A stretch of 36,451 nt of DNA from Pseudomonadota bacterium. Its GTDB lineage: Bacteria; Pseudomonadota; Alphaproteobacteria; CACIAM-22H2. The translations under genes and the position numbers were made by a program. This document shows, piece after piece, positions 13,981 to 36,318 of the stretch. Numbering within the stretch: position 1 is the stretch's first letter; each line of letters begins with the position of its first letter. The notes beneath the pieces were generated by a model that was given only the letters and a program-made list of their open reading frames with translations, made no database searches and was not told the DNA's origin. The stretch covers positions 1 to 36,451 of the forward strand of contig JACQDQ010000035.1 in NCBI GenBank assembly GCA_016201015.1. The letters are read 5' to 3'.

Positions 13981-14805
13981 TCATGTCCGTGGATTCAGGA
14001 CGTCGCGCAACCCGTCCCCCAGAAGATTGAATCCGATCGCGACGGTGGCGATGGCCAGGCTGGGCCAGATGATCATCCACGCGTTTAAATGCATGAAGCG
14101 CCGCCCTTCCGACACCATCAGCCCCCATTCCGGCGCGGGCGGCTGGGCGCCGAGGCCGAGGAAGCTCAATGTCGCGAACAGCATCACCGCGAAGGAAACG
14201 CGGATCGTCATCTCGACGATGATCGGCGCCACGACATTCGGCAACATCTCGCGCACGACGACATAGGCACTGCTCTCCCCCCGCGCGACAGCGGCGTTGA
14301 CGTAGTCCTGCTGCCGCACGGCAAGCGCAACGCTGCGCGTGACGCGGGCCATGCTCGGCGTGAAGGCGATGCCGACGGCGATCAGCGCGTTGAGGCTGCT
14401 CTTGCCCAACAGGTTGACGATGAGCAGCGCGAACAGCAGGCTGGGCACGGACATGATCGCATCGATCGTGCGCATGATCGCCTCGTCGGCGCGGCCGCCA
14501 AGGAAGGCCGAGGTGGTGCCGATGACGGCTCCGGCGGTCGTGCCCAGTGCCGTGGCCAGAAATGCCATGACCACGGTTGCGCGCGCACCGTAGAGCAGCC
14601 GGCTGAGGATGTCGCGGCCGTACTGATCCGTGCCGAACCAATGCCCGGCGCCCGGACCCTTGTAACGCAGCAGAGGATAGAGCCCCTCCGGGCTGTGCGG
14701 CGCCAGCAGCGGGCCGAGCACCACGATCATCAGCGCCAACGTAACGATCGCGACGCCGATCGCGCCTTGCGGCGAACGCGCCAGCCGGCGGAACAGCTCA
14801 ATCAT
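13981..14805 (-). CDS. Peptide-type ABC transporter permease (DppC-like)
   Basis: A 274-aa inner-membrane permease. It has an N-terminal helix (GAIGVAIVTLALMIVVLGPLL), the family-typical HWFGTDQYGRDILSRLLYGAR block, several further hydrophobic helices and the cytoplasmic EAA loop (YVNAAVARGESSAYVVVREM, then LPN), which contacts the ATPase. The C-terminal end GFNLLGDGLRDVLNPR is characteristic of DppC/OppC. ATG 14805 is chosen because the first nine residues of the longer frame read back into the upstream permease gene. The start overlaps the end of the upstream reading frame, indicating coupling. It appears intact, unlike its partner. Confidence 0.9.
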   Translation of the reverse strand: MIELFRRLARSPQGAIGVAIVTLALMIVVLGPLLAPHSPEGLYPLLRYKGPGAGHWFGTDQYGRDILSRLLYGARATVVMAFLATALGTTAGAVIGTTSAFLGGRADEAIMRTIDAIMSVPSLLFALLIVNLLGKSSLNALIAVGIAFTPSMARVTRSVALAVRQQDYVNAAVARGESSAYVVVREMLPNVVAPIIVEMTIRVSFAVMLFATLSFLGLGAQPPAPEWGLMVSEGRRFMHLNAWMIIWPSLAIATVAIGFNLLGDGLRDVLNPRT

Positions 14806-15592
14806 ACCGGATCCTCTTGTCGATCCAGGCATACGCCATGTCGGCCAGAAAATTCACGGCCGAATAGGTCGCCGCCATGATCAGCGCACCCGCCTGGATT
14901 GCCGGCAGGTCGCGGCTCTGTCGGCAGCAGCGCATTGCGTAGCGCGTGCTTGAACAGCACGGTGCGCCCGTCCAGGCCTTTCAGGCGGGCGGCGCGGATG
15001 TAGTCCGTGTGCAGCACGTCGACCAGCTCGGAACGCACCATGCGCGACACATGCGCGACCAGGATCACCGAAACCGTCATCACCGGCATCGCCAGGTGCT
15101 TCAGCGCCAGCCATAGATTCTCGGTCGGCGGCACATAGCCGGTCGCCGGCAAAAGCTGCAGCCAGTCCGCGAGGACCAGGACCACCAGAGTCGCAGTGAC
15201 GAACTCGGGAAACGAAACGCCGACATACGACATGACGCTGACGACAAGGTCCGCCATGCGGCCATGCCGAATGGCCGCGACGATGCCAAGCGGCACCGCG
15301 ACGAACAACATCAGGCCGATAGACAGGCCGGCGAGCAAGAGCGAACGGCCCAGTGCCTCGACCATCATGGCGGCGACCGCCTGGCCAGTACGCAGCGACA
15401 CGCCGAAATCGCCCTGCAGCACTCCGCCCAGCCAACGCCCGTATTGCAGCCAGACCGGCGCATCCAGGCCGAGCCGCTCGCGCAGCGCCGCGAGCGACTC
15501 CGGCGTGGCATTCTCGCCGAGCATCATGACCGCGGCGTCCGCCGGCAGCACCTGCGTGATGCCGAACACGACAAGAGACACCACGGCCAACC
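14798..15592 (-). pseudogene. DppB-like ABC permease gene, damaged at both ends
   Basis: Minus-strand remnant of the first permease gene. From about 15,592 down it encodes most of a DppB-type permease (LAVVSLVVFGITQVLPADAA, then MLGENATP, LQGDFGVSLRTGQ, and EAA loop DYIRAARLKGLDGRT). It has no start codon or N-terminus of its own, because it is joined in frame to the binding-protein gene. Near 14,915-14,918, after HALRNALLPT, about 30 residues normally found in DppB are missing and the frame shifts. The proper family ending (IQAGALIMAATYSAVN..., DMAYAWIDKRIRYD, stop at 14,798-14,800) is still readable in another frame. The proper stop would overlap the DppC start. Either the gene is truly dead or the sequence has lost bases here. 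Confidence 0.75.
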
Positions 15593-17060
15593 GCTGCGCC
15601 GCCAGCAGATCGAAGAACACCGGGATGATCGATGGCACCTGATCGTGCATCAACTGCTGTGCCTGGCCATAGAGCTCGCGGCGCTTGGCCTCGTCGATCG
15701 TCGTGCGCGCCGCGCTGACCACCTTGTCGAAATCGGGGTTGTTCCAGCGCGTCTCATTCCACGCGGCGTTCGAGGTGTAGAGCAGCGCGAAGATCGCATC
15801 GGCCGTCGGCTGCATGTTGTAGAAGCCGATATAGAACGATCCCTTCTTCCACACCTGATCGAGATAGGTGCTGTGCGGCATCGTCTCGACGTTGATGGTG
15901 AGGCCGGTTGGCTTCGCCATCTCGCGCACGGCGACTGCGAGTTGGGTGCGTACGGAAGGCCGGTCGGACGCAATCAGCGTCGCCGCCAATCCATTGGCAT
16001 GGCCGGCTTCGGCCAGCAGCATCTTCGCCTTGGCGATATCGGGCTTCTTCAGCGCCAGGTCGCGGTGGAACCGGTAGGCCGGGTTCAACGGCGTGTCGTT
16101 GCCGGGCGTGCCGTACCCCTCGGCCACGTAGTCGACCAGGGCGGCGCGGTCGATGGTCAGCGCCAAGGCCTGGCGCACGCGGATATCGTTGAAGGGCGGC
16201 TTGTCGCAGCCGAAATTGATGTTGCAGAACTGGCCCGAAGGCGTGCGCAACGCCTTCACGCCCGGCGCCTTCTGCAATCGGCCGAACTCGGTCGGTATCG
16301 TATTCAGCATCAGGTCGGTGTCGCCGGCCATCAAGGCCGAGACTTCGGCCGTCGGGTCGGGATAAATGACGACCTGCACGCGATCCAGGTAGGGCCGGTT
16401 CCGGTCGTAGTACGCCGGGTTGCGCTCAACGACGACCAGGCGCTCCGGCTCGAACGAAACCAGCTTGAAAGGACCGGTGCCGACCGCCTCGCGGTCGAGG
16501 CGGGCAAGCCCGGCTTTGATCACGGCAGCGGGCACGATCTTCGCGTTGGTGTAGGCGAGAGCGACCGGCAGGTCGGCATAGGGTGCGGTGGTTTTGATGA
16601 CGACTGTCACGCCGTCGGTTGCGGTCACTTTCTCGATCGGCCCGACATTCTGCCGCGCGGGGGAGGCGGTCTTCGGGTCGAGGATGGCCTCGAACGTCGC
16701 CACCACGTCGGCGGCGGTGCATTGGCTGTCATCATGGAAGGTCAGGCCCTGGCGCAGCTTGAAGGTCCATTCGGTCAGGTCCGCCGAGCTCGACCAGCTC
16801 TCCGCCAGGTCCGGCGCGGCGGCCATGTCGAGACCGAGCCGGGTGAGGCTGCTGTACAGCAGCTCCGCCACCAGGTACTCGGGATTCACTCGCACGAGCA
16901 GAGGATTGAGCTTGGCGACCGCTTGGTCGACGCTCATCCGCAAAGTGCCGCCGCGCTTCTGCGTCTGGGCGAATAGGGGAACGCTGGGTGCGGCAAGGCT
17001 GCCGAGCGCGGCGGCGCCGGCGAGGAAGCGGCGGCGATCGATGCTGAGGATCCCGGTCAT
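14802..17060 (-). CDS. Family-5 solute-binding protein running in frame into a DppB-like permease
   Basis: A 752-codon continuous frame. Residues 1-31 form a Tat-type signal (DRRRFLAGAAALGSLAAP). Residues about 35-490 are a peptide/nickel-type (family 5) substrate-binding protein (GGTLRMSVDQ; LTFHDDSQCTAADVV; GTGPFKLVSFEP; IRVRQALALTIDR). The C-terminal lobe ends abruptly at LLAAQR, about 30-40 residues early. Residue 491 onward is DppB permease lacking its first residues, and after about 714 the frame is nonsense until the TGA. A periplasmic binding domain ahead of a helix whose N-terminus should be cytoplasmic is topologically awkward, so I read this as a deletion fusing two genes rather than a designed fusion. 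ATG 17060 has GGGAGAG upstream and overlaps the M20 stop (ATGA). Confidence 0.75.
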   Translation of the reverse strand: MTGILSIDRRRFLAGAAALGSLAAPSVPLFAQTQKRGGTLRMSVDQAVAKLNPLLVRVNPEYLVAELLYSSLTRLGLDMAAAPDLAESWSSSADLTEWTFKLRQGLTFHDDSQCTAADVVATFEAILDPKTASPARQNVGPIEKVTATDGVTVVIKTTAPYADLPVALAYTNAKIVPAAVIKAGLARLDREAVGTGPFKLVSFEPERLVVVERNPAYYDRNRPYLDRVQVVIYPDPTAEVSALMAGDTDLMLNTIPTEFGRLQKAPGVKALRTPSGQFCNINFGCDKPPFNDIRVRQALALTIDRAALVDYVAEGYGTPGNDTPLNPAYRFHRDLALKKPDIAKAKMLLAEAGHANGLAATLIASDRPSVRTQLAVAVREMAKPTGLTINVETMPHSTYLDQVWKKGSFYIGFYNMQPTADAIFALLYTSNAAWNETRWNNPDFDKVVSAARTTIDEAKRRELYGQAQQLMHDQVPSIIPVFFDLLAAQRLAVVSLVVFGITQVLPADAAVMMLGENATPESLAALRERLGLDAPVWLQYGRWLGGVLQGDFGVSLRTGQAVAAMMVEALGRSLLLAGLSIGLMLFVAVPLGIVAAIRHGRMADLVVSVMSYVGVSFPEFVTATLVVLVLADWLQLLPATGYVPPTENLWLALKHLAMPVMTVSVILVAHVSRMVRSELVDVLHTDYIRAARLKGLDGRTVLFKHALRNALLPTEPRPAGNPGGCADHGGDLFGREFSGRHGVCLDRQEDPV

Positions 17061-18382
17061 GAAACTCTCCCTTCTAGCGGTGATGCGGTGAGATCCGCCG
17101 ATGCGACCTCTTCGTCGAAATCGGCGCTGAGATAGAGCAGGATCGCGCGGGCCAGCGCGATCACGTCGTCGACTGTCGTGAACTCGTCCGGCGCGTGCGC
17201 GTTGCTGTCGGGCCGGACCAGACCGCCCAGCAGGATCTCGCGGATGCCGGCGCGCTGCACCCAGCCCATGTCGGAACTGGTCGATGAGCCCCATGCGCGG
17301 AAACTTCGCGGCGCGAAGCCGAACCCGCGGGACAGCGCCGCCTGCCAGCGCGGCCAGTGCGGGCCGGTCGGATCGGACACCGGCGCGAGGTGCCCGATCA
17401 TCCGGGTTTCGACGGCAAGGGCGCGTGTGCCCTTCATCGCCTTGGCGATGATCGTTTCGATCTCGGCGCGGACCGCGGCGAAATCCTCCTCCGGAGCGTA
17501 GCGACGATTGAGCAATATGTCGAAGCGCGCCGGCAGCGACGATCCCTTCTGTCCGCCGTGTGCGGCGGCGATGGTCAGGCGCGCCGTCAGTTTCCGGCCG
17601 TCAAAATGCGGCGGCGCCGGGAGGGCGGAGATTCGACCCTCGACGTCAGCCTTGAGCGCCAGCAGCGCGTTGAGCAGCGGGACCGACTCCTCGACGGCAT
17701 TGATGCCTTGCCCGGGATCGCCCGAATGGCCGCCGCGGCCATGGACGCTGATGGTGAAATCAACGCTGCCGAAACAACCGGCCCAGATTCGCGGCGCCGC
17801 CCCGCCGTTGAAGTTGAGCAGGTGCCCCTCGATCAGGCCTTGTTCCGCCAAGTAGCGGATGCCCGGATAGAGTCCGCCTTCTTCGTCGGTGCAGAACAGC
17901 AGAAGCGGATCGAAGCGCAGCGCCAATCCGTGCCGATCGATTAGGCGCAGCGCCGCTAACGTCGCCGCGATCGTGCCTTTCATGTCGGCGACGCCGCGGC
18001 CAATGAGCCGCGCCCCATCGCGCGTCAGGGACAGCGGCGGGCGTGTCCAGCCCGCGCCCGGCGGAACCGTATCGACATGATAATAGAGACTGCAAACCGG
18101 CCGACCGGAAGAGCGCGCGGCGAGCAGATTGAGCCGCTCGCCTTCGCCGCTGCCATCGCCGGCAAACCAAAGGTCCCTGGGAACGGACACGCGGCTGAAA
18201 CGAAAGCCGAGCGGCGACAACAGCCGCTCCAGCAGATCGGCAAATGTCACGTAGCCGTCACCGGGCGGAAAGGACGTATCGATGGCGATCAGCCGCGACA
18301 GATCGGCAACGATCGCCGCTTCCTCGCCGGCGACGGCGGCGAAGGCTTTCTCGAGATTGGCCGACGGCGCTACGGGTGCCAC
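17057..18382 (-). CDS. M20/ArgE-family metallopeptidase
   Basis: A 441-aa cytoplasmic zinc hydrolase with an intact family pattern: YYHVDTVPPG (His and Asp ligands), GRGVADMKGT (bridging Asp), CTDEEGG (catalytic Glu and ligand Glu), GRGGHSGDPG (dimerisation-domain His) and SNAHAPDEF (C-terminal His). Relatives cleave N-acyl amino acids, dipeptides or succinyl-diaminopimelate. The frame opens far upstream, but GTG 18382 is preferred: it has GGGAAG upstream, and a start further up would run through the operator and into the divergent gene. It is the first gene of a minus-strand unit that continues with the binding protein (ATGA overlap), permeases, ATPase and a second M20-like protein. This suggests import and cleavage of peptides or acyl-amino acids. 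Control by the divergent GntR regulator is likely. Confidence 0.85.
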   Translation of the reverse strand: MAPVAPSANLEKAFAAVAGEEAAIVADLSRLIAIDTSFPPGDGYVTFADLLERLLSPLGFRFSRVSVPRDLWFAGDGSGEGERLNLLAARSSGRPVCSLYYHVDTVPPGAGWTRPPLSLTRDGARLIGRGVADMKGTIAATLAALRLIDRHGLALRFDPLLLFCTDEEGGLYPGIRYLAEQGLIEGHLLNFNGGAAPRIWAGCFGSVDFTISVHGRGGHSGDPGQGINAVEESVPLLNALLALKADVEGRISALPAPPHFDGRKLTARLTIAAAHGGQKGSSLPARFDILLNRRYAPEEDFAAVRAEIETIIAKAMKGTRALAVETRMIGHLAPVSDPTGPHWPRWQAALSRGFGFAPRSFRAWGSSTSSDMGWVQRAGIREILLGGLVRPDSNAHAPDEFTTVDDVIALARAILLYLSADFDEEVASADLTASPLEGRVS

Positions 18383-24482: not shown

Positions 24483-25400
24483 TCAATCGCCGGCGCTCGG
24501 ATCGAGTTGCATCGCCACCAGCCGGCAAAGCTCAGCGAACGCCGCATCGCGATCGAAGGAACTGTTGTGCATCCCCAGCTTGATCAGCAGCGGCTGCAGG
24601 TCCACGTCGGATCGATCCTTGCCGACGCCGGCCAGCGACAGCAGCAGGTTCGCGCAATGCGGCGCGCATTCCGTGCAATTATAGCTGGCCCAAAGCAGCG
24701 CCTGCTTCACTGCTGCCGTAGGGTGGCGCTCGGCCAACCGCAGCGCGCGCGTGAGACCGTTTGCCGGGTAGGCCAGATTGCGGAGTTGTCGCGCCAGGAA
24801 CGCATCGAGGTCGGGCATACACCCTTGGCGGTGCATCACTTCGGCGGCGGCGAGGCGTGTATCGATCGACAGATGGTGCTTCGATGCCGCATCGACGGCA
24901 GCGCGCGCCGCCGGCGTGTCGATCACCGCCAGTGCCTCAACTTCCCGCCACGTCATGTCGCGTCCGGTCAGCAGGTCAATCAGCAACCGCCGTTCGCCCA
25001 CGGTCATGTCATGGATCGCCGCGACGTCATACATTTCATCGTCGCGCCACTGCCCGGAAATCGGCACGATGCTGGCGACGAAGCGGTCGAAAGCGGGACT
25101 GCGGACCACGTACAAATTGGCGATCAGCGATATCGTACCGCCGTCGAGATCGACGTCGAACCCGGCGTCCGATGCCTTCTGGCGGACCACGTCGGCGCCG
25201 ACAAAGTCAAAGATTTCCGCCTGCCGGCCGGCCGCCCATGGATAGCGGAGATCCCAAACCTGCGCGGTCGGTCCAAAGATGACGGCGATCGTCGGCGAGG
25301 CCGCAAACTCCCAGTCGAATACGGCGGTATTGCCGCCCTCGCGGTAATAGATCGAGCCGCCGCGCCCGGTTGACATGATATCGACGGTAGGGTTGGGCAT
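24483..25400 (-). CDS. Uncharacterised 305-aa protein with a C-terminal CxxCxxxC motif
   Basis: I do not recognise this family. ATG 25400 is chosen over the upstream ATG (25430) because AAGGAG lies seven bases before it. The N-terminal half (about 1-120) looks beta-rich (GGSIYYREGGNTAVFDWEF; IAVIFGPTAQVWDLRYPW). The C-terminal half is helical, with alternating Leu/Ala-rich segments (TPAARAAVDAASKHHLSID; NGLTRALRLAERHPTAAV) reminiscent of HEAT-type repeats. C242, C245 and C249 in YNCTECAPHCANLL could bind metal or form a disulfide. No signal peptide or membrane helix is seen. It is divergent from the secreted protein at 25,771 across a 370-base gap that holds repeated GTTTC sites, so it may share regulation with that gene. 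Confidence 0.65.
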   Translation of the reverse strand: MPNPTVDIMSTGRGGSIYYREGGNTAVFDWEFAASPTIAVIFGPTAQVWDLRYPWAAGRQAEIFDFVGADVVRQKASDAGFDVDLDGGTISLIANLYVVRSPAFDRFVASIVPISGQWRDDEMYDVAAIHDMTVGERRLLIDLLTGRDMTWREVEALAVIDTPAARAAVDAASKHHLSIDTRLAAAEVMHRQGCMPDLDAFLARQLRNLAYPANGLTRALRLAERHPTAAVKQALLWASYNCTECAPHCANLLLSLAGVGKDRSDVDLQPLLIKLGMHNSSFDRDAAFAELCRLVAMQLDPSAGD

Positions 25401-25569
25401 CTCAGACTCCTTGTGCGCGAACATCGTCACGGAGGTTTCGCGCCCGCGTGACGAAGAACACGACGCGCCGCGCCATCGCCGCTGCGTCAGTTCATGGCCG
25501 GCGAAGGCGCAGTTTCACGCACCTTAGCCACGGCATATTGCCGGCCCGCCTCGCGACCGGACAAAGGGC

Positions 25570-25656
25570 GTTTCGAAGGTTTCAGCCTGCCGATGCGGCA
25601 CTCCCTCGATGTCCCGTGTCCGCCGCCACGCCGCATCCATCCGAAACAATCGATAC
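25570..25656. promoter_or_regulatory. GTTTC/GAAAC repeat sites in the 25,401-25,770 intergenic region
   Basis: GTTTC-GAAG-GTTTC (25570-25583) and GAAAC-AATC-GATAC (25643-25656, one base off GAAAC in its second half). The first faces the 24,483 gene and the second the 25,771 gene. The same unit, two pentamers spaced by four bases, recurs at 27,397, 27,712 and 33,713. Single GTTTC copies also occur at about 25,436 and 25,511. The rest of this 370-base gap shows a small CGTTC-CA-GAACG repeat (25726-25737) and no convincing gene. Confidence 0.45.
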
Positions 25657-25770
25657 AAAAAGGCCCAGCTGGCGAAATCATCAGGCAACGGCGATCCATG
25701 ATGATGCCCGACGTAGCGTGCTGGACGTTCCAGAACGCCGACCTCTGAATCAGACGAATGGAGCCTTTGC

Positions 25771-26208
25771 ATGAGTATGCCACGCCACTCGATCCACCGG
25801 CCCCGCGGCCATGCGCCGATGCTGACCGTGCTGACCATCGCCGCCGCCTTGACCATCTGCGGAACTGCCGACGCCGCCGAACAACGACAGGAGACAATCG
25901 CCATGAAGCAAGAAACTTCAACCATGAAGCTATTCAAGATCGTGACGCCCCGCGACGACATCGTCATCGGCCTTGCCGACGACGAGCTGCGGTCATTCGG
26001 ACCGGCCGCGGATCTTGACAATCTCGCGCAGCAGCTCGCCGGCGCGAAGCAACTGACGGTTTGGCAATATGCCGTTCGCAAGGGAACCAATGGCGAGCTG
26101 CAGCAGGCGCCGATGCGCCGCATCGCCGTCTTCGCTTCCGACACCCTCCGCGTCGAGCCCTACACGACACCGCTGCCGGTGGTCATGCCGGCTACCGAGG
26201 CCCGCTAG
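25771..26208 (+). CDS. Small secreted protein, paralogue of the 35,609-35,974 protein
   Basis: A 145-aa protein with a long n-region and hydrophobic stretch (MLTVLTIAAALTICGTADAA, about 17-36), ending in an AxA-like cleavage site, so probably exported. The mature part, MKLFKIVTPRDDIVIGL... KQLTVWQYAVRKG... APMRRIAVFASDTLRVEPY, lines up clearly with the product of the minus-strand gene at 35,609 (LFKVVTAKDDVVVGW... QLSVWQFA... APLKRIVIFAPGTARIEPY). I do not know a named domain for it. The ATG at 25771 has TGGAG upstream; an internal ATG at 25903 would remove the signal. GTTTC/GAAAC sites lie 115-200 bases upstream. A small one-helix protein gene follows after eight bases. Confidence 0.7.
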   Translation: MSMPRHSIHRPRGHAPMLTVLTIAAALTICGTADAAEQRQETIAMKQETSTMKLFKIVTPRDDIVIGLADDELRSFGPAADLDNLAQQLAGAKQLTVWQYAVRKGTNGELQQAPMRRIAVFASDTLRVEPYTTPLPVVMPATEAR

Positions 26209-26216
26209 CGTCGTCG

Positions 26217-26540
26217 ATGGGAGTGCCGGTCATGCCATTTGGTAGACCAGCCCGCTGGCGGGCGCCAGGAGTTCGGCCCGCCAGCGGCTTCATCTTGCTC
26301 ATCGTCGCGCCGATCTTTCTATTGACCATGTTGACGCTTCGGTCGGAAGGGTCGGGTGCCGTCTTCGAGCCCGCGCCCGTCAGCAACGCCGACGGAGCGC
26401 GCCTTCTTCGGCCACGATCGTCTGACGGCGGCGCCAGTGACTCTGTGCCGGTAGTCGGCGCAGATCAGCTGCCAACACTTTCCATCCTACTTCAGAACCA
26501 TTTCAATCTCGAAGAAGTCGCCTGGCTGATCGAACGGTGA
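26217..26540 (+). CDS. Small single-helix membrane protein, uncharacterised
   Basis: A 107-aa frame eight bases downstream of the secreted-protein gene. A basic N-terminus (FGRPARWRAPGVR) precedes one hydrophobic helix (GFILLIVAPIFLLTMLTL, about 24-41). A low-complexity linker and a C-terminal helix (SILLQNHFNLEEVAWLIER) follow. The N-terminus should be cytoplasmic and the rest periplasmic. No family is recognised. The start could also be the ATG at 26232. It probably forms a two-gene unit with the preceding gene. Confidence 0.5.
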   Translation: MGVPVMPFGRPARWRAPGVRPASGFILLIVAPIFLLTMLTLRSEGSGAVFEPAPVSNADGARLLRPRSSDGGASDSVPVVGADQLPTLSILLQNHFNLEEVAWLIER

Positions 26541-26847
26541 TCACCTAGCCATCGACGGCGAAGGCTTGATCATCGGGACGTCCACGGCCGCGCAGGCCGT
26601 CGGCTTGCATGGCCCGCAATGCCGATGCGCAGCCGCCGCTACGCGTGCGGCCGATTGCCACGATCCCTGTTTGGCGCGGTGAAGCGACCATATGACCAGC
26701 CTGAAGCTGCTGCCCAGCCGAATGGTCGCTGCCCGCGGACGGCAGCGCGCAAATCAAGACCTAATTTTACCGGCTGCCGGGATTTGCAGCGGTCGTGGCT
26801 CATGCTTCTTCGGCAGGCCTCGCGAATGGTGCCGAAGCGCGTCGGCC
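26541..26847. other. Non-coding gap, nothing recognised
   Basis: A 307-base gap between convergent genes. Several frames cross it, but none has a ribosome site, family-like residues or balanced composition. No stem-loop with a T-tract was found by eye. Confidence 0.5.
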
Positions 26848-27240
26848 CTATAAGCTCTTGGTCAGTAGAGCGCGGATGTCGTTGTCGCTGAACATGCCGT
26901 CGGTGCGTTGCGCATAGGCGCAATGCATTTCGAGAATGCCGGCCTCGAATGTCATCTTCATGTCAGCCTTGTTCTTCACGTTCTTGAGCCGGATCTTCTT
27001 CAGACCCTGGCGCACGGCTTCTTTGCCGAGGTCGTCCTGGCAAATCACGCGCAGCGCCATGTTGAGGCGATGGCAGGAAATGTTATCGAGGAAATTCAGG
27101 CCTTCCATGTCGTCGGACAGGCTATCCCAGTCTATTTCGTAGGGAACCGGCGCCCCGCAGATCTCCTCGATCTCTTTGACCCGGGCCGGGATCGTGACCT
27201 CCAGAAGCGATTTGATTTTGCGTCTTTCATCGAGTGACAT
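26848..27240 (-). CDS. Uncharacterised 130-aa soluble protein
   Basis: The start at ATG 27240 is fixed by GGAGAAG seven bases upstream; the frame extends further, but that part is arginine-rich and unlike protein. The product is charged and helical (MSLDERRKIKSLLEVTIPAR; IDWDSLSDDMEGLNFLDNIS; KKIRLKNVKNKADMKMTFEA) with two cysteines (SCHRL, VICQDD) and a third in EMHCAY. No signal peptide, membrane helix or known motif is seen. It lies about 600 bases from the divergent globin gene, and a GTTTC-N4-GTTTC site lies about 157 bases upstream. Real by ribosome site and composition; function unknown. Confidence 0.65.
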   Translation of the reverse strand: MSLDERRKIKSLLEVTIPARVKEIEEICGAPVPYEIDWDSLSDDMEGLNFLDNISCHRLNMALRVICQDDLGKEAVRQGLKKIRLKNVKNKADMKMTFEAGILEMHCAYAQRTDGMFSDNDIRALLTKSL

Positions 27241-27395
27241 GTACTCTTCTCCGTAGGATTGGACCGCGCTCGCCCGTCCTCGAGCCAGGCCGGAGGACGA
27301 CGGCAAGCGGTCTTGGATTGCCGGCCAGCGGCGTTGCCGGTGGGCGGATGATGCGCGGACTCCGTTGCCCCAATATTTCGCCGGTAGCCGCAAAG

Positions 27396-27410
27396 TGTTT
27401 CATTTGTTTC
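27396..27410. promoter_or_regulatory. GTTTC-N4-GTTTC site upstream of the 26,848-27,240 gene
   Basis: TGTTTCATTTGTTTC at 27396-27410. It differs by one base from the left half of the 33,713 palindrome. It lies in the 599-base gap 27,241-27,839 and overlaps the end of the doubtful frame 27,400-27,627. Confidence 0.4.
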
Positions 27411-27627
27411 GCGATGATCCGCTTCCCGAAGGGGACGGCAATTCGCGATGCGCTCTGGCGAGCCAGGCGCCGTTCCCGATTTCGGACCGCAGCTGCGGCA
27501 GCGTCTCTGCGGGCAGATTGGCGATACGACGGGTCGACGAACTGCCAGCGACGCCGCGGACCAGAAGCATCAGCATGGTCAAGCCGCCATAGGTGTCGAA
27601 GCTACCCATCTCGGCGACCCTGCGCAA
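27400..27627 (-). CDS. Doubtful small reading frame in the globin upstream gap
   Basis: A 75-codon frame from TTG 27627 (ATG at 27609 possible). The middle reads like protein (GSFDTYGGLTMLMLLVRGV; TRRIANLPAETLPQLRSEI) and the frame is open upstream to about 27,727 with similar composition, but no ATG with a clear ribosome site is found. It could be a small gene, the decayed end of a longer one, or chance. Confidence 0.25.
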   Translation of the reverse strand: MRRVAEMGSFDTYGGLTMLMLLVRGVAGSSSTRRIANLPAETLPQLRSEIGNGAWLARAHRELPSPSGSGSSRNK

Positions 27628-27711
27628 GAGCCGGTGGTGTTCATCGTCTGTGTCTACCGGGCGGACGACCGTTTTGATTTCTCTGCGGAAACCCCTTGCA
27701 GCGTCCCGGCT

Positions 27712-27739
27712 GAAACATTGGAAACATTAATCCTGAAAC
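27712..27739. promoter_or_regulatory. GAAAC repeat sites upstream of the globin gene
   Basis: GAAAC-ATTG-GAAAC (27712-27725), then another GAAAC at 27735-27739. The paired unit starts exactly 128 bases before the globin ATG. The similar unit at 25643 starts 128 bases before the ATG of the secreted-protein gene at 25771. No sigma-54-type promoter was found between the site and the gene. Confidence 0.45.
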
Positions 27740-27839
27740 GAGGACATCGACCTGAAATCGGCATCCGGCATCTTCCCCTCCGAAAGGCGCGACCATGGAG
27801 GGAAATCACCTTCCGGCGCTTTAAAGGAGGTTTTCGATC

Positions 27840-28271
27840 ATGACGCCGAGCCAGATACAGTACCTGGAGACGAGCTTTACCCGGGTCGCGGCCATCAAGG
27901 ACCAGGCTGCGGCGCTATTCTACGCTCGCCTATTCGAGCTGGACCCCTCGCTGCGCCCGCTGTTCAAAAGCGAAATTGCCGCGCAGGGTCAGAAGTTGAT
28001 GGCCGCCATCGGCATGGTCATCGCCAACCTACGGCATCCGGAGCGGGTCGTGGCAGCTTGCCGCGAACTGGGCCGTCGTCACACCGGCTACGGCGTCAAG
28101 GCGCACCATTACGACACGGTCGGCGCGGCCCTGCTATGGACCCTCGAGCGCGGCCTGGGATCGGAATTCTCGGTGGAGGTCCGCGACGCGTGGACGCAGG
28201 CCTACGGCCTGGTTTCGGGGGCGATGATCTCGGCCGCGAATGACATGGAGCCGTTGGCGGTGGCCTCCTGA
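27840..28271 (+). CDS. Single-domain haemoglobin (Vgb/flavohaemoglobin-type globin)
   Basis: A 143-aa globin without a reductase domain. Proximal haem ligand H81 lies in GRRHTGYGVKAHHYDTV (F8 region of the bacterial haemoglobin pattern). B10 tyrosine is Y28 in LFYARLFELDP, CD1 phenylalanine is F42 in LRPLFK, and the C-terminal helix DAWTQAYGLVSGAMI is typical. Such proteins bind O2 and, with a partner reductase, detoxify NO or supply O2. A strong ribosome site (AGGAGG, 27825-27830) precedes the ATG at 27840. A GAAAC repeat site lies upstream. A GNAT gene and a response regulator follow on the same strand, suggesting a redox-related unit. Confidence 0.88.
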   Translation: MTPSQIQYLETSFTRVAAIKDQAAALFYARLFELDPSLRPLFKSEIAAQGQKLMAAIGMVIANLRHPERVVAACRELGRRHTGYGVKAHHYDTVGAALLWTLERGLGSEFSVEVRDAWTQAYGLVSGAMISAANDMEPLAVAS

Positions 28272-28323
28272 TTGGCGTTGCCGACGACGAAATATCGCGG
28301 ACCGCAATCGGAAGGACCAGGAC

Positions 28324-28833
28324 ATGTATTGTCGGCTTGGCAACACCCACCTCGCGCTCATTCGGCAACATTTGCTGTCGCTCTCGGCGCCGGATCGTCT
28401 GTTTCGCTTCAATTCGTCGCTTTGCGATATGGCGATCGGTCGCTACTGCGCGGAGATCGACTGGGATCGCTGCCTAAGGATGGGCTTCGTCGCGGACGGC
28501 ATCGTGCGCGGCATGATCCAGCTTGCACCGCCGACGGCCCGCTATTCGGGCCGGCGCGAGGCCGCATTGACTGTGGATCGCGGATGGCGCCGGCGTGGAA
28601 TCGGGACACGACTGGTGGCCGAGAGCGCGCAGCTTGCGGCATCTTCGGGGTGTCGCTGCCTGGTGTTCTATTGGCATCCGGAGAACGACAGATTCCTGAG
28701 CTTTCTGACCGCCTGCGGCGGCTTCATTGCCCAGCAACACCCACCGATCGGCTGGCTCCTGGTGCCATCGAACCAGGCGTCGCGCCGGACGCAAACGACG
28801 GCGCAGGGTTGCGCGGTCGCCGATGTCGCATGA
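28324..28833 (+). CDS. GNAT-family N-acetyltransferase
   Basis: A 169-aa acetyltransferase. The acetyl-CoA pyrophosphate loop is RGWRRRGIGTRLV (86-98, pattern R/Q-x-x-G-x-G). The N-terminal segment LLSLSAPDRLFRFNSSLCD is seen in many small GNATs that start with a 'sxxdrxxRF' block. ATG 28324 is chosen from the ribosome site AAGGACCAGG just upstream; the longer frame begins inside the globin gene. The substrate is unknown. It lies 52 bases downstream of the globin gene and 81 bases before the response regulator gene, all on the same strand, so co-transcription is likely. Confidence 0.75.
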   Translation: MYCRLGNTHLALIRQHLLSLSAPDRLFRFNSSLCDMAIGRYCAEIDWDRCLRMGFVADGIVRGMIQLAPPTARYSGRREAALTVDRGWRRRGIGTRLVAESAQLAASSGCRCLVFYWHPENDRFLSFLTACGGFIAQQHPPIGWLLVPSNQASRRTQTTAQGCAVADVA

Positions 28834-28914
28834 CTCGGCCGAACCCAAGACCGGGGGAATTGGATGTTGAATCGGGACCCTGTACCATACGCTAACGTGA
28901 CGCGAGGACACGCA

Positions 28915-29652
28915 ATGAAGCCGGAGCCAGTGACGATCGCCGTCGTCGACGACGAGGCTGAGATTCGTGAGACCGTGGCGGAATATCTGGAAAGCCACGG
29001 ATTCAAGATCATTCAAGCCGAGTCGGCGGCGGCCTTCCGGCGCGTGCTGGAAAGCCGGAGCGTCGATCTCGTGCTGCTCGATGTCAACATGCCGGGCCAA
29101 AGCGGACTCAGCCTGGCACGTTATCTTCGCGAGCAGGCCGATATCGGCATCATCATGCTGACCGCCGCCGCCGAGCCCGACGACCGCATCGCCGGTCTCG
29201 AGCTTGGCGCCGACGACTACATCGGCAAGCCGTTCAATCCGCAGGAGTTGCTGGCCCGCGTCCGCAGCGTCTTGCGCCGCCGCTCCGCCCGCTTCATGCG
29301 GACCGATGGCACCGCCCCCGGACGCGATCACCGCCTATTCAACGACTTCGTTCTCGATCTCGAGGCCCGCGAATTGCGCCGGCGCGACGGCGCCGTTGTT
29401 CCGCTGACCGCCATGGAGTTCGATCTGCTGCGCACCTTCGCGCTCAATCCGCTCAAGGTGATGACGCGCGACCAGCTCCTCAATCTTGCTCACAACCGCG
29501 ATGAAGAGCCGTTCGAACGCAGCATCGACATCCGCGTCGCTCGCCTCAGGCGCAAGATCGAAATCGATCCCGAGAAACCCCAGGTCATCAAGACCGTTCG
29601 CGGCGCCGGCTATATCTTTGTGCCCGACGGCAGCGACGGCGCGCCGGAGTAA
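28915..29652 (+). CDS. OmpR/PhoB-family response regulator
   Basis: A 245-aa regulator. Receiver domain: acidic VDDE (11-14), phospho-acceptor D56 in LVLLDVNMP, TAAAEPDDR switch region, and lysine in DDYIGKPF. The winged-helix DNA-binding domain covers about 140-240 (VPLTAMEFDLLRTFALNP; SIDIRVARLRRKIE; VIKTVRGAGYIF). The frame opens at 28864, but ATG 28915 has GAGG upstream and leaves no odd N-terminal tail. It converges on the hybrid kinase gene with only eight bases between stop codons; that kinase is the natural candidate partner. As the only DNA-binding protein in the 25-36 kb region, it is a candidate reader of the GTTTC sites, although the 9-base period is shorter than usual for this family. 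Confidence 0.9.
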   Translation: MKPEPVTIAVVDDEAEIRETVAEYLESHGFKIIQAESAAAFRRVLESRSVDLVLLDVNMPGQSGLSLARYLREQADIGIIMLTAAAEPDDRIAGLELGADDYIGKPFNPQELLARVRSVLRRRSARFMRTDGTAPGRDHRLFNDFVLDLEARELRRRDGAVVPLTAMEFDLLRTFALNPLKVMTRDQLLNLAHNRDEEPFERSIDIRVARLRRKIEIDPEKPQVIKTVRGAGYIFVPDGSDGAPE

Positions 29653-29660
29653 GCCTCGGA

Positions 29661-32600
29661 TCAGCCGGCAGCGGCGCGCAGCTCGTCGATCCGGCGTGCA
29701 ACCGTCTCGCGCACGGTTCTCGGGTTTAGCGGCTTTTCAATGCACGCGACCCTGGTTTCGATGAGAAACGTCGTGACATGGGGCGCGAGAGTATCGCCGG
29801 TGATGAACACCAGGCGATCGAGCATCTTGGGATGTTCCTTGGCCACGGCACGATAGAGCCCCGGCCCATCGAGCACCGGCATCCGCAGATCGCTGAGAAT
29901 CAGGTCGTAGCGTCGCTCCGCCAGGCGTGCGAGCGCCTGACGGCCATTGTCAGCGATGTCGACGCTGTGACCCGCCCTCTCCAGGATCTCCGCCAGCGTC
30001 TGGGCAGTCTCGATTTCGTCATCGACAACTAGAATCTCGGCTCCGCCCTGGCGCTTCTCAGAATCTGCCGGAAGGTCGGCGGGCGAAGCTGTCACCGCCC
30101 CTCTCTGCGGCAGGGTCACCGTGAATGTCGCCCCGCCGCCGGGCGTATCGCCGACCGTGATACGCCCGCCATGCGCCTCAACGACGCCCTGGCACATCGA
30201 CAACCCCACGCCGGTGCCGACGCCGGTCGGCTTGGTTGTGAAGAACGGCTCGAAAATGCGCGAGCGTATCTCCAGTGGAACTCCAGGGCCATTATCCGCC
30301 ACCGACAGGACCAGTTCGCGGCGATCGGCGCGATGGCTCGTCGCGATCACGATCCGCCGCGGCGGTGAACGTTCCATCAGCGCCTGCTGTGCATTGACGA
30401 TGAGATTGGTAAAGACCTGGTTGAGCTGGTCGGCGTCGGCCATCAGCCGCGGCAGATCGCGGGCAAGTTCGAGGTCGACCGTGATGTCGGTCGTCCGCAG
30501 ATTGTAGGCGAGCAAATCGAGTCCGGCCTCGACGACGCTGTTGATGTCCAATGCCGTGACTTCCGGTGGGCGCCGGCGCGCCATCGCGAGAAAAGTCTTG
30601 ACGATTCGCGCGCAGCGTTCGGCGGCGCGGCGAATCTTCTCGGCCCGCGCGGCCACCGCAGGATCGGCGGCCATATCGTGCAGCATCACGGCCTGGCCAA
30701 CCACCACCGAAAGAGGATTGTTGAGCTCATGGGCGACGCCGGCGAGGAGCGAGCCGAGCGCTGTCAATTTCTCGCTATGCGCCAAGGCTTCGCGCTGCCG
30801 AAGAATTTCCGCGTCCGCGCGCTTGGCCTCGGTTAGGTCGACGAAGCCCGAGACGATCGCCCCCTCGCCTTCCCACACGATTCTTCGCGACGACAGGGAC
30901 GCAGGAAATACCGAACCATCGCCCTTGCGCAGCATGACTTCGAAATTTTCGATATTCGGGGATTCCGAAAGCGCGGCGATCAGACGCTGGCGGTCCGCGG
31001 GATCGGCATAATAGACGGCGGAATTGGTGCCGACGCAGTCATCCACCTTGAACAATCGATGAGAGCCGGGGCTCGCGTAGACGATGACGCCGTCGGCAAG
31101 CCGGACGATGACGACCGGCACGGGATGAGCCTCGGCAATACCGCGAAATCGCTGTTCGCTTTCGCGCAAGGCCCGCTCCATCTGCTGGCGTTGCGAGATG
31201 TCGCGGACATAGGCCGTGAACGCCCGTGTTTCCGGTAGGCGCACTTCGGCGATCGACAGTTCGGCGGGAAAAGTCGAGCCGTCGGCACGCATGGCCTCGA
31301 CGTCCACGCGCCGGCCCAGCATCCGCCTCTCGGGATTCTGCTCGAGCTGCATCAAGCCTTCGTTATGGCGGTGGCGCAGATGCGGCGGGACGATGACGTC
31401 GACGACCCGCCGCCCGAGAACGTCGTCTCTGGCATATTTGAACGTCCGCTCGGCCGCCGGATTGAACTCGAGGATTTCCCCCTGATCGCTCATCGTGATG
31501 ATCGCATCGAGCGATGAATCGATCATCGCCGACTTCAGCGCCTCGCTCTCGCGCAAGATCGCCTGGACGCGCTTCTGGTCGGTGATGTCGGTTCGTACGA
31601 AGACGAAGCCGCCATCCGCCGTCGGATAGTGGGACACGACGGACCAGCGTCCATCCGCCCACTCGATTTCCAACGGCGCCGCGGACCGGTCGCGAAACCG
31701 CGCGAGCGAGCGCGCGATCAGTGCATCGCGATCCGTGATCGGCACGCCATCGACGGTGACCACCTGCGGCACCAGCCTGCGAAGCAGCCCCTCCGCCGAG
31801 GCGCCGATGATCGCATCCGGCCGGGCGTTGTAAACGGCCGCAAAGGCGGGATTGCACAGTTGCAGCCGCTGATCACGATCATAGACGCCGACGCCCTGCG
31901 GCAGCGTAGCCATCGTATCCGCGACCATCTGATCCAATCGCCGGCGCTGCGCATCGTCGCGGTCGCGGCTGATCGCGACGCCGACCAACCCGGCTACGGC
32001 GCGCAACGCCTCGATTTCGAGCGGTTGCCAGACGCGTTCTTCCGTACAATGGTCAAAGCCGATGGTTCCCCACCACTGGCCTTCGACCATGACCGGGACC
32101 CGGATCGCGGATTTCACCCCCTGCCTCTCGAACCACGCACGCTGCCCGTCAGGCAAATCGCGCGTCAGGCCGTAGACGACCATGCCGCGGGAACGTTGCG
32201 CCCGCCAGTCCTGGAAAGCGCCGTCCTTCAGGACAACGTCGCGTAAGGCCTCATCATCCATGACGCGACGAATGCCCGGCGCGTCCCACTCGAACAGGTC
32301 CTCCTGTAGATAGGCGCCGTCCGCCGTTATATCGTTGCGACTCAGGGTCACGCGGCTGACACCCGCCGCCGGGCCGAGTCTTACGATCATTTCCTCGACT
32401 TGATCGCGCCATCCGGCACTCGACAACAGGCGCGCAGCCGCGTCGTTGACGACCGAGAGTATCGCCTCGCGGCGCTTGATATCGGTGATGTCGACGCGAA
32501 CGGCGACGGTCCAATCCTCGGCGGTGCGCCGGTCGGTCACCCGGATCCAGCGGCCGCCTGGCTTCGGCACGTCGAGCGACCCGGTGGGATTGCGGTGAAA

Positions 32601-33332
32601 CGCCATACGGCGCGCGATATGCGCCTCCGCTTCTTCCGGCGGCACCATCGTATCGCTCGACATCGTCATCGCACGGACCAGGTGCTCGAAGCTCACGCCT
32701 TCCCGCAACTCACTGGCAATCGCCTGTTGCATCTCCCGGTATCGGGCGTTGCACAGGACCAGACGGTCCTCGTTGTCAAACAGCGCAAATCCTTCGGACG
32801 AACATTCGATGGCGTCGAGCAGGCGGCGATGCGTGGCGACGGCCCGCTTCTCGGCGGCAAGCCGCTGCGTGACATCGCCGCAGAATATGACGAAACCGCC
32901 CTTGCGCAGGGCAGTTCCCCTGATCTTGATCGTCCGTCCATCGGGCAAGGACCGCTGGCGCACGTAATCCTCATGCCGGCGGAAAACCTGGAGACGTGAA
33001 GCGACGGCTTCCTCCTCGGTCATGTCGCCATACGCGCCCTGGCGGGCGTTGTATCGGATCACTCCCTCAAGCGGGGCGCCGGGGCGAACCAACCGGGCCG
33101 GAAGGCCGAACAGCCGGCGGAAGGCCGAGTTGGCGACGCGAATATCAAGTTTCGCGTCGACGATGCACACGCCCTGGGGAACGTCTTGAACGATGATGTC
33201 GAGCAGCGACGTGTCGGTAGCGGCCCGACCCGCCCTTTCCGTTCGAGATCGGCGAGCGGGCCCAGTGGGCCGCTTCGGCGACGTTGCCGCGGCCTTAGGC
33301 CGAGGGACTCGCGGCCGATTGTTTCGTGCCAC
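29661..33332 (-). CDS. Multi-PAS/GAF hybrid sensor histidine kinase with C-terminal receiver
   Basis: A 1223-aa soluble kinase with no membrane helix. Order by eye: basic Pro-rich N-terminus (1-40); PAS-like modules at about 42-158 and 168-288; GAF at about 290-458; PAS at about 465-588, 597-718 and 722-840 (each ending in a DIT/DIS/DLT motif); HisKA with H868 in VAHELNNPLS; HATPase with N980, DNGPG (1013-1017) and GVGTGVGLSM; receiver with DD (1104-1105), D1148 and K1200. The GAF stretch FDHCTEERVWQPLEIEAL is typical. The GTG start at 33332 follows a weak GGGGTG. It should sense a cytoplasmic signal (redox, haem, flavin or small molecule; not determinable) and pass phosphate to its own receiver and possibly to the convergent OmpR-type regulator. 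Confidence 0.9.
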   Translation of the reverse strand: MARNNRPRVPRPKAAATSPKRPTGPARRSRTERAGRAATDTSLLDIIVQDVPQGVCIVDAKLDIRVANSAFRRLFGLPARLVRPGAPLEGVIRYNARQGAYGDMTEEEAVASRLQVFRRHEDYVRQRSLPDGRTIKIRGTALRKGGFVIFCGDVTQRLAAEKRAVATHRRLLDAIECSSEGFALFDNEDRLVLCNARYREMQQAIASELREGVSFEHLVRAMTMSSDTMVPPEEAEAHIARRMAFHRNPTGSLDVPKPGGRWIRVTDRRTAEDWTVAVRVDITDIKRREAILSVVNDAAARLLSSAGWRDQVEEMIVRLGPAAGVSRVTLSRNDITADGAYLQEDLFEWDAPGIRRVMDDEALRDVVLKDGAFQDWRAQRSRGMVVYGLTRDLPDGQRAWFERQGVKSAIRVPVMVEGQWWGTIGFDHCTEERVWQPLEIEALRAVAGLVGVAISRDRDDAQRRRLDQMVADTMATLPQGVGVYDRDQRLQLCNPAFAAVYNARPDAIIGASAEGLLRRLVPQVVTVDGVPITDRDALIARSLARFRDRSAAPLEIEWADGRWSVVSHYPTADGGFVFVRTDITDQKRVQAILRESEALKSAMIDSSLDAIITMSDQGEILEFNPAAERTFKYARDDVLGRRVVDVIVPPHLRHRHNEGLMQLEQNPERRMLGRRVDVEAMRADGSTFPAELSIAEVRLPETRAFTAYVRDISQRQQMERALRESEQRFRGIAEAHPVPVVIVRLADGVIVYASPGSHRLFKVDDCVGTNSAVYYADPADRQRLIAALSESPNIENFEVMLRKGDGSVFPASLSSRRIVWEGEGAIVSGFVDLTEAKRADAEILRQREALAHSEKLTALGSLLAGVAHELNNPLSVVVGQAVMLHDMAADPAVAARAEKIRRAAERCARIVKTFLAMARRRPPEVTALDINSVVEAGLDLLAYNLRTTDITVDLELARDLPRLMADADQLNQVFTNLIVNAQQALMERSPPRRIVIATSHRADRRELVLSVADNGPGVPLEIRSRIFEPFFTTKPTGVGTGVGLSMCQGVVEAHGGRITVGDTPGGGATFTVTLPQRGAVTASPADLPADSEKRQGGAEILVVDDEIETAQTLAEILERAGHSVDIADNGRQALARLAERRYDLILSDLRMPVLDGPGLYRAVAKEHPKMLDRLVFITGDTLAPHVTTFLIETRVACIEKPLNPRTVRETVARRIDELRAAAG

Positions 33333-33909
33333 CGCAGTTCACCCCGGATAATTCACTGATGCCGAATGATTTCGTCTCACAAAGCCCTCGCCGAACCGGC
33401 AGACCCGACGTTAATGTCTTCGACATGTCGCGCCCTCGCGGGCGAGCGGCGAAACCTTACGGTACGAACCGAACCGACCACAAGGGGCCGTTTCTCCCAT
33501 CCGCCGCGAGCCTTCACATGCACTCACCTTGGACGAGGCGCAGACCGTGAACAGGCCGACCACGCGGGCCCGCCGTCGGGCAACGCGCCGGCCGATGCAC
33601 GCCGCTCCATGGCCCTGCCCCCAGCCCGCACCCCAGCGCGCGGCGGAAGACGGAGGGACGCGAAGGATGCGCGGCGTACGTGTCCGTTGCATTGCGCCTT
33701 GTCACTTGAGTTGTTTCAATTGTTTCGGAAACTATTGAAACGGTTTTCGCTGCCGGCAACACGGGATCGACACAAACCGGGTTCATTGTCCAGTACTGGT
33801 AACGGCGCGAATCGGGAACAAAAAGTGTCATAGCAACTCGAATCCGTCGCCGTCCGATTTCTCGAGAGCCGACAAGATCCGAAAGGCCCAGCGGGCGGAG
33901 CAGTCGCAC
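33333..33909. other. 577-base intergenic region with repeat sites, no gene
   Basis: Lies between divergent genes (kinase, minus; small membrane protein, plus). Frames crossing it are Arg/Pro-rich and unlike proteins. Visible structure is the large GTTTC palindrome at 33,713-33,741 and a perfect CCAGTACTGG (33790-33799). No clear sigma-54 element was found. Confidence 0.5.
33713..33741. promoter_or_regulatory. Four-half-site GTTTC palindrome
   Basis: GTTTC-N4-GTTTC (33713-33726), one central G, GAAAC-N4-GAAAC (33728-33741). The two 14-base arms are complementary at 13 of 14 positions. It is the most complete copy of the repeat seen at 25570/25643, 27397 and 27712. It lies 169 bases upstream of the small membrane-protein gene (33910) and about 380 bases upstream of the divergent kinase. 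Confidence 0.6.
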
Positions 33910-34101
33910 ATGTCCGATATCAGTTTGAATTTCTCGCCCCTCGAACTGCTGCTGATCGCGATCGTGATCGGCTTGCCGGGTGCACTTGCTGGCCTGATTA
34001 TTGGCGCCATCTTGCTGCGCCGACGGCCGATGCTCGGCGCGCTGGCGGGTGCGGTCCTGGGCGATGCCGGCTGGACCGCGATGCTTCTGCTGTGGGGCTG
34101 A
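33910..34101 (+). CDS. Small two-helix membrane protein
   Basis: A 63-aa protein, mostly hydrophobic: PLELLLIAIVIGLPGALAGL running into IIGAILL (about 10-36), RRR turn, then LGALAGAVLGDAGWTAMLLLW (about 42-62). GGAG lies about ten bases before the ATG. The glycine-rich helices resemble small GlsB/YeaQ-like membrane proteins, but the match is not clear enough to name it. It is followed by a second membrane protein gene after 95 bases, and a strong repeat-type regulatory site lies upstream. Confidence 0.55.
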   Translation: MSDISLNFSPLELLLIAIVIGLPGALAGLIIGAILLRRRPMLGALAGAVLGDAGWTAMLLLWG

Positions 34102-34196: not shown

Positions 34197-34586
34197 ATGT
34201 CGTTCTTGCTGAATTTCGTGAGCGCCGCGCTGATCCTTCCCAATCTTGCGCTGGCCTGCTTCTTTCTCGCCGTCGGCGTCGTCGCCGGGCAGACAATCGG
34301 CTCGCTGCTGAAATCCGTATGGTCTTTGCTCGACTATGTGCCTTACATGCCTTACGTGGTCATCCTGGCCCTTGCGGCGGCGGCCGCCATTGTCGTCGCC
34401 ATGGTCCGCTACGACTTTCTATTTCCGCTCACGCTCGTGCTGCTCGGTGGCGCAAGCGTGTTCTACGTCTGCTGGGTAGCCTGGGACCAAGACTTGCTGC
34501 AAAACCCCATCTTACTGGCCAGCTTGGTCGGCGTTGCCCTCAGCGGCCTGCAATTCTGGCGCGTGACGCAGGGCGTCGCGACATGA
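34197..34586 (+). CDS. Four-helix membrane protein, uncharacterised
   Basis: A 129-aa protein with hydrophobic segments at about 5-30 (FVSAALILPNLALACFFLAV), 44-66 (YMPYVVILALAAAAAIVVAM), 69-89 (FLFPLTLVLLGGASVFYVCW) and 98-115 (ILLASLVGVALSGLQFW). No motif is recognised. The frame is open earlier, but ATG 34197 begins the membrane pattern and has AGGCGAG upstream at a somewhat long distance. It probably forms a unit with the 63-aa membrane protein and converges on the secreted-protein gene at 34,671. Confidence 0.6.
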   Translation: MSFLLNFVSAALILPNLALACFFLAVGVVAGQTIGSLLKSVWSLLDYVPYMPYVVILALAAAAAIVVAMVRYDFLFPLTLVLLGGASVFYVCWVAWDQDLLQNPILLASLVGVALSGLQFWRVTQGVAT

Positions 34587-35608: not shown

Positions 35609-35974
35609 CTAGTTGGGCGGCAAGACATCGTAGGCGGAGACATAGGGTTCGATGCGCGCCGTACCGGGCGCGAAGATGACGATACGCTTCAGCGGCGCCG
35701 TCTTGAGCTGGCCGTCCTTGTCCCTGAGGGTCGCGAACTGCCAAACCGATAGCTGACCGGCGCGTTGCAACTCGCCGGCAACGACATCGATCAGCGCGCC
35801 GCGCCCCATGGCCTCGACCTCGGCCTTGGTCCAGCCGACCACGACATCATCCTTTGCCGTGACGACTTTGAACAAGGCGATCTGGTTTGGATTGGCCTGT
35901 GCCAAGGCCGGTCCGGCCAGTGCCAAGGCGACGGCGGATGCCGCAACGGTACCGCGCAAAACTGGTTTCAGCAT
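35609..35974 (-). CDS. Small secreted protein, paralogue of the 25,771-26,208 protein
   Basis: A 121-aa protein with a textbook signal peptide (MLKPVLRGTVAASAVALALA, then GPALAQA). The mature part of about 95 residues has LFKVVTAKDDVVVGWTKAEV, GQLSVWQFATLRDKDG and LKRIVIFAPGTARIEPY. Positions and conserved blocks match the plus-strand protein at 25,771. ATG 35974 has AAGGAGAG upstream; the longer frame adds a non-signal stretch. No known domain is recognised. It is the first gene of a two-gene unit with the 301-aa secreted protein. The 25,771 copy is also followed by a membrane-anchored partner. Confidence 0.72.
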   Translation of the reverse strand: MLKPVLRGTVAASAVALALAGPALAQANPNQIALFKVVTAKDDVVVGWTKAEVEAMGRGALIDVVAGELQRAGQLSVWQFATLRDKDGQLKTAPLKRIVIFAPGTARIEPYVSAYDVLPPN

Positions 35975-36318
35975 GTTCTCTCCTTGGGTTCGAACGGACC
36001 GGAATATCGAGGACATCATGTTTCAGGTCAATGCGTCGTGCGCCGCAATCGCGCTTCAATCGTTTCCGTCGTCACTTGGCCGCGTTGCTGCCCTGCTCAT
36101 ATTTGCGATGTCACATCGCCAAGATGTCCGAATTTTGGTGTCGGGTAGAGACATCGCGTTCGGACTAAGTCCGCTCCGGAGTTGGCTTTCCGGTCGCCAT
36201 CTGCCCCTGAAGCAATCGAAACGAGAATCCTGCCTTCGCGATATCCCGGCGAAACGGACAATCCACATCATTGGGTCGACGCTTAGATTGATCGCCGCAA
36301 GCCGTGGGAGCAAACAGA
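35975..36318. other. Non-coding gap with one short palindrome
   Basis: A 344-base gap between divergent genes. CGGACT-A-AGTCCG (36161-36173) is a small perfect inverted repeat. A poor sigma-54-like GG-N10-GC element lies near 36,183-36,200, but its flanks fit badly. No gene or other repeat was recognised. Confidence 0.45.

Follow-up and report, generated by a model that had tools for sequence, protein, structure and literature searches.

A spaced GAAAC repeat, the predicted operator of an OmpR-family regulator and a PAS-rich hybrid kinase, occurs upstream of globin genes in Alphaproteobacteria

Introduction

OmpR-type response regulators bind direct repeats as head-to-tail dimers, and the sites of TorR are likewise direct repeats. 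VirA, the sensor of the VirA/VirG system, is a hybrid kinase with a C-terminal receiver domain. Bacterial globins are controlled in response to NO or oxygen by NsrR, NorR and Fnr; to our knowledge, how alphaproteobacterial single-domain and truncated globins are controlled outside these routes is largely open. The sites of OmpR-family regulators differ in number and spacer (PMC7380067), with a repeat period of 11 bp in one studied case (PMC5253667), and the vir-box hexamer of VirG is TG(A/T)AA(C/T) (PMC10432156).

An earlier note on a contig of an alphaproteobacterial genome, made from the sequence alone, pointed out a recurrent GTTTC-N4-GTTTC motif, proposed that it marks a local regulon and named a nearby OmpR-type regulator as a candidate reader. 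Here, we report that this putative operator accompanies one clade of OmpR-family regulators together with PAS-rich hybrid kinases, keeps a fixed spacing and lies upstream of globin genes in several lineages.

Results

The window analyzed is the whole of contig C52 (JACQDQ010000035.1; 36,451 nucleotides) of assembly G000 (GCA_016201015.1; 5.33 Mb in 551 contigs). A pattern search of the window recovered all exact GTTTC-N4-GTTTC copies previously listed (25570+, 27397+, 27712−, 33713+ and 33728−), as well as the copy at 25643, which carries one mismatch and lies on the minus strand. The statement that no equal pair occurs elsewhere in the window holds for exact copies, but two one-mismatch copies (36053+ and 36209−), outside the span then considered, had been overlooked. 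In total, the window contains eight matches with at most one mismatch against 1.4 expected, and eight were reached in 1 of 100 shuffles. An Rfam scan of the window gave zero matches.

When read on the opposite strand, as GAAAC-N4-GAAAC, every site in the window is directed at a gene start. The copies form convergent-looking pairs because, in this reading, the pairs mark divergent promoters. In agreement with the flanking genes first described, the secreted protein, the 130-aa protein, the globin and the small membrane protein each have an upstream site. The predicted operator at 25643–25656 (+; sense GAAACAATCGATAC, one mismatch) is 114 bp upstream of the gene for a secreted 145-aa protein (25771–26208, +), for which a Pfam search returned no match, and that at 25570–25583 (−; GAAACCTTCGAAAC), the weakest exact copy with a centre that departs from the consensus, is ~145 bp upstream of the gene at 24483–25424 (−). 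The predicted operator at 27397–27410 (−; GAAACAAATGAAAC) lies 156 bp upstream of its predicted target, the gene for an uncharacterised 130-aa protein (26848–27240, −). A further one, at 27712–27725 (+; GAAACATTGGAAAC), is 114 bp upstream of the ATG of a single-domain globin gene (27840–28271, +; Pfam PF00042, E = 1e-19), and a third GAAAC occurs 9 bp further downstream. Between the globin gene and the gene for the OmpR-family response regulator (28915–29652, +), the proposed reader of the motif, a GNAT acetyltransferase is encoded on the same strand (28324–28833, +).

The remaining exact copies are arranged head-to-head. The predicted operator at 33713–33726 (−; sense GAAACAATTGAAAC, or GTTTCAATTGTTTC when the same bases are read on the plus strand) points towards the gene for a PAS/GAF hybrid histidine kinase with a C-terminal receiver domain (29661–33332, −), the proposed cognate sensor, and lies ~380 bp upstream of its annotated GTG, if that start is correct. 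Its neighbour at 33728–33741 (+; GAAACTATTGAAAC) is predicted to serve a gene for a 63-aa membrane protein (33910–34101, +) that begins 168 bp downstream, and a 129-aa membrane protein is encoded further on in the same direction (34197–34586, +). Of the one-mismatch copies near the contig end, both predicted to be weaker operators, that at 36053–36066 (−; GAAACGATTGAAGC) is 78 bp upstream of the gene for a secreted 121-aa paralog (35609–35974, −; 41% identity, no Pfam match) of the protein encoded at 25771, and that at 36209–36222 (+; GAAGCAATCGAAAC) is ~95 bp upstream of an ORF that starts near 36318 and runs off the contig. Homologs of this secreted family were found in just 4 of the 384 other genomes searched; as all of those in the four genomes lack a site, the family is not a conserved target.

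The copies had been described as all intergenic, which is true with one reservation: the 27712 copy falls within a 131-aa ORF (27448–27843) that overlaps the globin promoter region. This ORF is probably not a gene: its GC3 is 0.57, compared with 0.75–0.83 in real neighbours, and it has no homologs in the searched loci. Elsewhere in the window, a single 830-aa frame (14802–17294, −) fuses a family 5 solute-binding domain to a transporter permease domain, an unusual combination.

The genome-wide count that the earlier note had proposed as a check places the motif above chance, with 13 exact pairs in the 5.33 Mb compared with 6 for a backwards control, and finds its A/T-centred form at promoters. 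Extended patterns that include flanking letters gave 13 versus 2 and 15 versus 3 matches; G/C-centred copies are about as frequent as the backwards control. Of the 13 exact copies, five are in the 8.2 kb from 25570 to 33741 of the window, and contigs C404 (GTTTCAATTGTTTC) and C406 (GTTTCAGTTGTTTC) each have one with the same A/T centre. Another three (GTTTCGTCCGTTTC), found on C37, C100 and C460, are part of an unrelated 9-bp repeat that is dispersed in the genome. A dispersed element on C1, C37, C67, C100, C101, C120, C169 and other contigs (L217–L228) consists of an invariant lead, CACGCACCCCCCTGTTCCGTTTCGTCC, a run of 9-bp units (GTCCGTTTC, GTCCGATTG or GTCCGATAGG) that varies, and a tail (for example GGAAACAGGG) with the potential to base-pair with the lead; a 17-mer of this element is present in 27 exact copies.

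The term local regulon captures the clustering in the window but understates the distribution, since at least five more contigs of the genome carry sites, as do related systems across Alphaproteobacteria. Beyond the window, genes for membrane proteins on C373, C47, C404 (two sites) and C406 have sites 42–96 bp upstream, and a site on C524 is 108 bp upstream of the gene for a 73-aa secreted protein. A profile search for paralogs of the C404 membrane protein returned exactly six genes, which form five transcription units. Each of these units has a site in the sense direction at this 42–96 bp distance; the sixth gene follows 60 bp behind another paralog. Members of this family are ~370 aa long, start with MRYLLNLPL and are encoded on C47, C373, C404 (three genes) and C406; a Pfam scan of two of the six gave no match above cut-off. 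The upstream regions have no obvious common sequence outside the site itself. When genome contigs were searched with the window kinase, only remote matches were found.

Scanning the class for the exact 14-mer, with no use of protein information, brought up several loci at which relatives of the window regulator and kinase are encoded. Conversely, we collected relatives of the regulator by protein similarity alone (including one from Aminobacter), scored the motif in their loci, mostly of 13 kb, and built a tree. The tree separates clade A, 20 regulators that include the one in the window, from clade B, 30 OmpR-like regulators, with 97% SH-aLRT support. An exact motif is present within 5 kb of 17 of the 20 clade A regulators and of none of the 30 in clade B; with the window left out, the counts are 16 of 19 and 0 of 30 (Fisher p = 3e-10, a value made optimistic by the relatedness of the loci). 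The clade A loci with no exact site within 5 kb are L165, L176 and L185. Clade A regulators mostly adjoin a homolog of the PAS-rich kinase of the window. Counted per genome, the exact 14-mer is present in 11 of the 15 that encode a clade A regulator and in 21 of 370 others (p = 2e-10, with significance again inflated by relatedness).

The spacing is equally specific. The 19 clade A loci outside the window (249 kb) contain 23 pentamer pairs with a 4-base spacer and zero to two at each other spacing from 0 to 15, and the backwards control gives no match at spacing 4. In the 30 clade B loci (393 kb), the pair occurs once at spacing 4. Thirty-four sites yield the consensus cTGAAACAAWTGAAACa, that is, in the sense direction, a cTGAAAC-AAWT-GAAACa unit with two GAAAC half-sites as a direct repeat 9 bp apart. 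At L104 (G307), three tandem 9-bp units (GTTTCAGTTGTTTCAATTGTTTC, 5217–5239) lie upstream of a methyltransferase gene. The recognition helix carries arginine at position 207 in all 20 clade A regulators, including R207 of the window protein, and glutamine in 28 of the 30 clade B proteins, as also in E. coli OmpR, making Arg207 a plausible specificity determinant.

Loci in named organisms extend this pattern. A search of plasmids with only the catalytic and receiver part of the kinase identified loci in Skermanella, Rhizobium, Neorhizobium, Novosphingobium, Pleomorphomonas and Ruegeria; an Aminobacter plasmid was found through the regulator instead. In Rhizobium sp. RCAM05350, an exact site lies 82 bp before a globin gene that comes after the regulator and kinase genes, and in Neorhizobium sp. 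EC2-8 an exact site lies 81 bp before a globin gene. Novosphingobium pLA3 has three exact sites: one precedes, by 77 bp, a gene row reaching the kinase and regulator via a truncated haemoglobin, and the others precede an OsmC gene (129 bp) and the gene for a PLP enzyme (95 bp). On this plasmid of N. pentaromativorans (L233), the operators lie between an arsenic-resistance cluster and the kinase/regulator gene row, in which FAD oxidoreductases, the truncated haemoglobin and a nucleotide cyclase precede the kinase and regulator. Skermanella rosea has one exact site, 103 bp before a small ORF, and the Aminobacter plasmid has two, 97 bp before a DUF1344 gene and 88 bp before a DUF1127 gene. The Ruegeria and Pleomorphomonas loci contain no exact site; the regulators of both are not part of the tree. 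The proposal that the regulator at 28915 is the reader is thus strongly supported by co-occurrence of protein and site, from the two clades, from the enrichment at N4 only and from the plasmid loci. The copies are real and, judged from these comparisons of sequence, the 28915 regulator very probably reads them.

Globins recur among the genes that carry a site. In seven genomes, a site is located 73–134 bp upstream of a globin gene, always in the same orientation. For single-domain globins, the distances are 114 bp in the window, 86 bp at L112, 82 bp at L113, 73 bp at L153, 82 bp at L231 and 81 bp at L232; truncated globins are represented by L105 (134 bp) and the pLA3 gene row. At the globins of G012 and G018 there is neither a site nor, in the vicinity, a clade A regulator. 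Other genes with a site encode a peroxiredoxin (L107), a DsbD-like protein (L115, 238 bp) and methyltransferases (L101, L104).

Discussion

We consider it highly probable that the motif serves as operator for the two-component pair encoded among its copies, the kinase at 29661–33332 and the regulator at 28915–29652. The hybrid kinase would phosphorylate the regulator, which would then bind both half-sites as a head-to-tail dimer, usually ~75–170 bp upstream of the start codon. The placement of the sites upstream of genes favours activation, which is probably the mode of control. The most likely targets of activation would be the globin–GNAT–regulator unit, amounting to autoregulation, the kinase gene and the genes for secreted and membrane proteins, both here and on other contigs. 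Because sites are found at both the globin–GNAT–regulator unit and the kinase gene, the system would feed back on its own genes. Some observations count against this explanation: three clade A loci and those of Ruegeria and Pleomorphomonas lack an exact site, the 9-bp period is shorter than the 10–11 bp usual for the OmpR family, and the content of the regulon differs between genomes.

Could another protein read the motif and merely share targets with the regulator? Candidates would be a CRP/FNR-type regulator or a sigma factor with a TGAAAC −35 element, as some ECF −35 elements resemble TGAAAC and the distances from site to start codon are compatible with promoter elements. We think this unlikely, since the motif tracks one regulator clade and is absent from its sister clade. 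Two tandem units whose 9-bp period is fixed typify a dimeric regulator rather than a −35 box, the genome of L104 has three such units, and in our unsystematic reading of the loci no sigma factor was noticed to recur.

It is far less probable that the copies are left over from a dispersed repeat or a mobile element and have no regulatory meaning. Although the 9-bp repeat family of this genome yields 3 of the 13 exact matches, the A/T-centred copies have no obvious flanks in common, are directed at gene starts and are found again at loci of this kind in further alphaproteobacterial orders. The unshared flanks led us to reject a mobile element, and a dispersed repeat is already largely refuted for the A/T-centred copies. 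A chance cluster, to which we give next to no weight, could draw on the similar frequencies of G/C-centred copies and the backwards control, but is refuted by the spacing scan, with 23 pairs at N4 in other loci against 0–2 at other spacings and none in the control.

If the kinase and regulator described here do act through this operator, what might they sense? As the recurrent targets are globins, and single cases are a peroxiredoxin, an OsmC-family protein and a DsbD-like protein, our guess is that the signal is oxygen, NO or redox state. A broader reading, possible but somewhat doubtful, is that these loci belong to a widespread and undescribed alphaproteobacterial regulon. Its multi-PAS/GAF hybrid kinase would respond to oxygen, NO or redox state, and its OmpR-type regulator, with a distinctive arginine in the recognition helix, would bind an unusually tight direct repeat of 9-bp period to switch on haemoglobins and families of uncharacterised membrane and secreted proteins. 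Literature searches, made with the letters of the motif and for globins with OmpR-type regulators among open-licence papers, returned at most unrelated two-component systems and no description of the motif or the system, which is apparently a normal kind of gene switch that has so far not been described.

The same regulator, its predicted site and often a haemoglobin-like gene are found together in many alphaproteobacteria. As the regulator, the kinase and the 14-bp operator can be searched for in any genome, the proposal is directly testable in culturable Rhizobium, Aminobacter and Novosphingobium. For several protein families with no Pfam match, the operator also offers a first clue to function.

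How does the system compare with those already described? The regulator scores 102.8 bits with PF00072 (receiver domain) and 76.8 bits with PF00486 (the DNA-binding domain Trans_reg_C), both above cut-off, as for an OmpR-family winged-helix protein, and the spacing-specific GAAAC-N4-GAAAC repeat to which co-occurrence links it is a tandem direct-repeat operator of the kind this family uses. Since its scores fall below the NCBIfam equivalog cut-offs for OmpR (NF007005, 241 versus 331 bits), TorR (NF008034, 204 versus 275 bits) and VirG (NF010430, 192 versus 344 bits, this model being our yardstick for VirG), we file it under none of these. NsrR, NorR and Fnr resemble it in controlling globin genes but use other operators and belong to other regulator families. 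TorS/TorR likewise pairs a hybrid kinase with an OmpR-family regulator, but E. coli TorR groups, on a long branch, with clade B members, and no TMAO genes were found in the examined stretch of the window. EnvZ/OmpR shares the regulator family, the best NCBIfam model, a near-identical recognition helix and tandem direct-repeat binding, which is predicted here; unlike OmpR, the regulator forms a separate clade from the alphaproteobacterial OmpR-like proteins (97% SH-aLRT), has arginine in place of glutamine in the recognition helix and is paired with a different kinase, and the loci of the OmpR-like clade lack the motif.

In architecture, the system is like VirA/VirG of Agrobacterium, which also combines an OmpR-type regulator, a hybrid kinase with a C-terminal receiver and a TGAAAC box. 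The first description held that the motif matches no known site; this stands except that its TGAAAC unit, present in most sites, fits the VirG vir-box hexamer TG(A/T)AA(C/T) (PMC10432156). In contrast to VirA/VirG, the predicted targets here are globins, redox proteins or membrane and secreted proteins of unknown function, and the kinase has many PAS and GAF domains; in our untargeted reading of the loci, no vir type IV secretion genes came up. As predicted from its genes and sites, the system resembles VirA/VirG without belonging to the VirG family, and it joins a known kind of regulatory system as a new, well-supported case.
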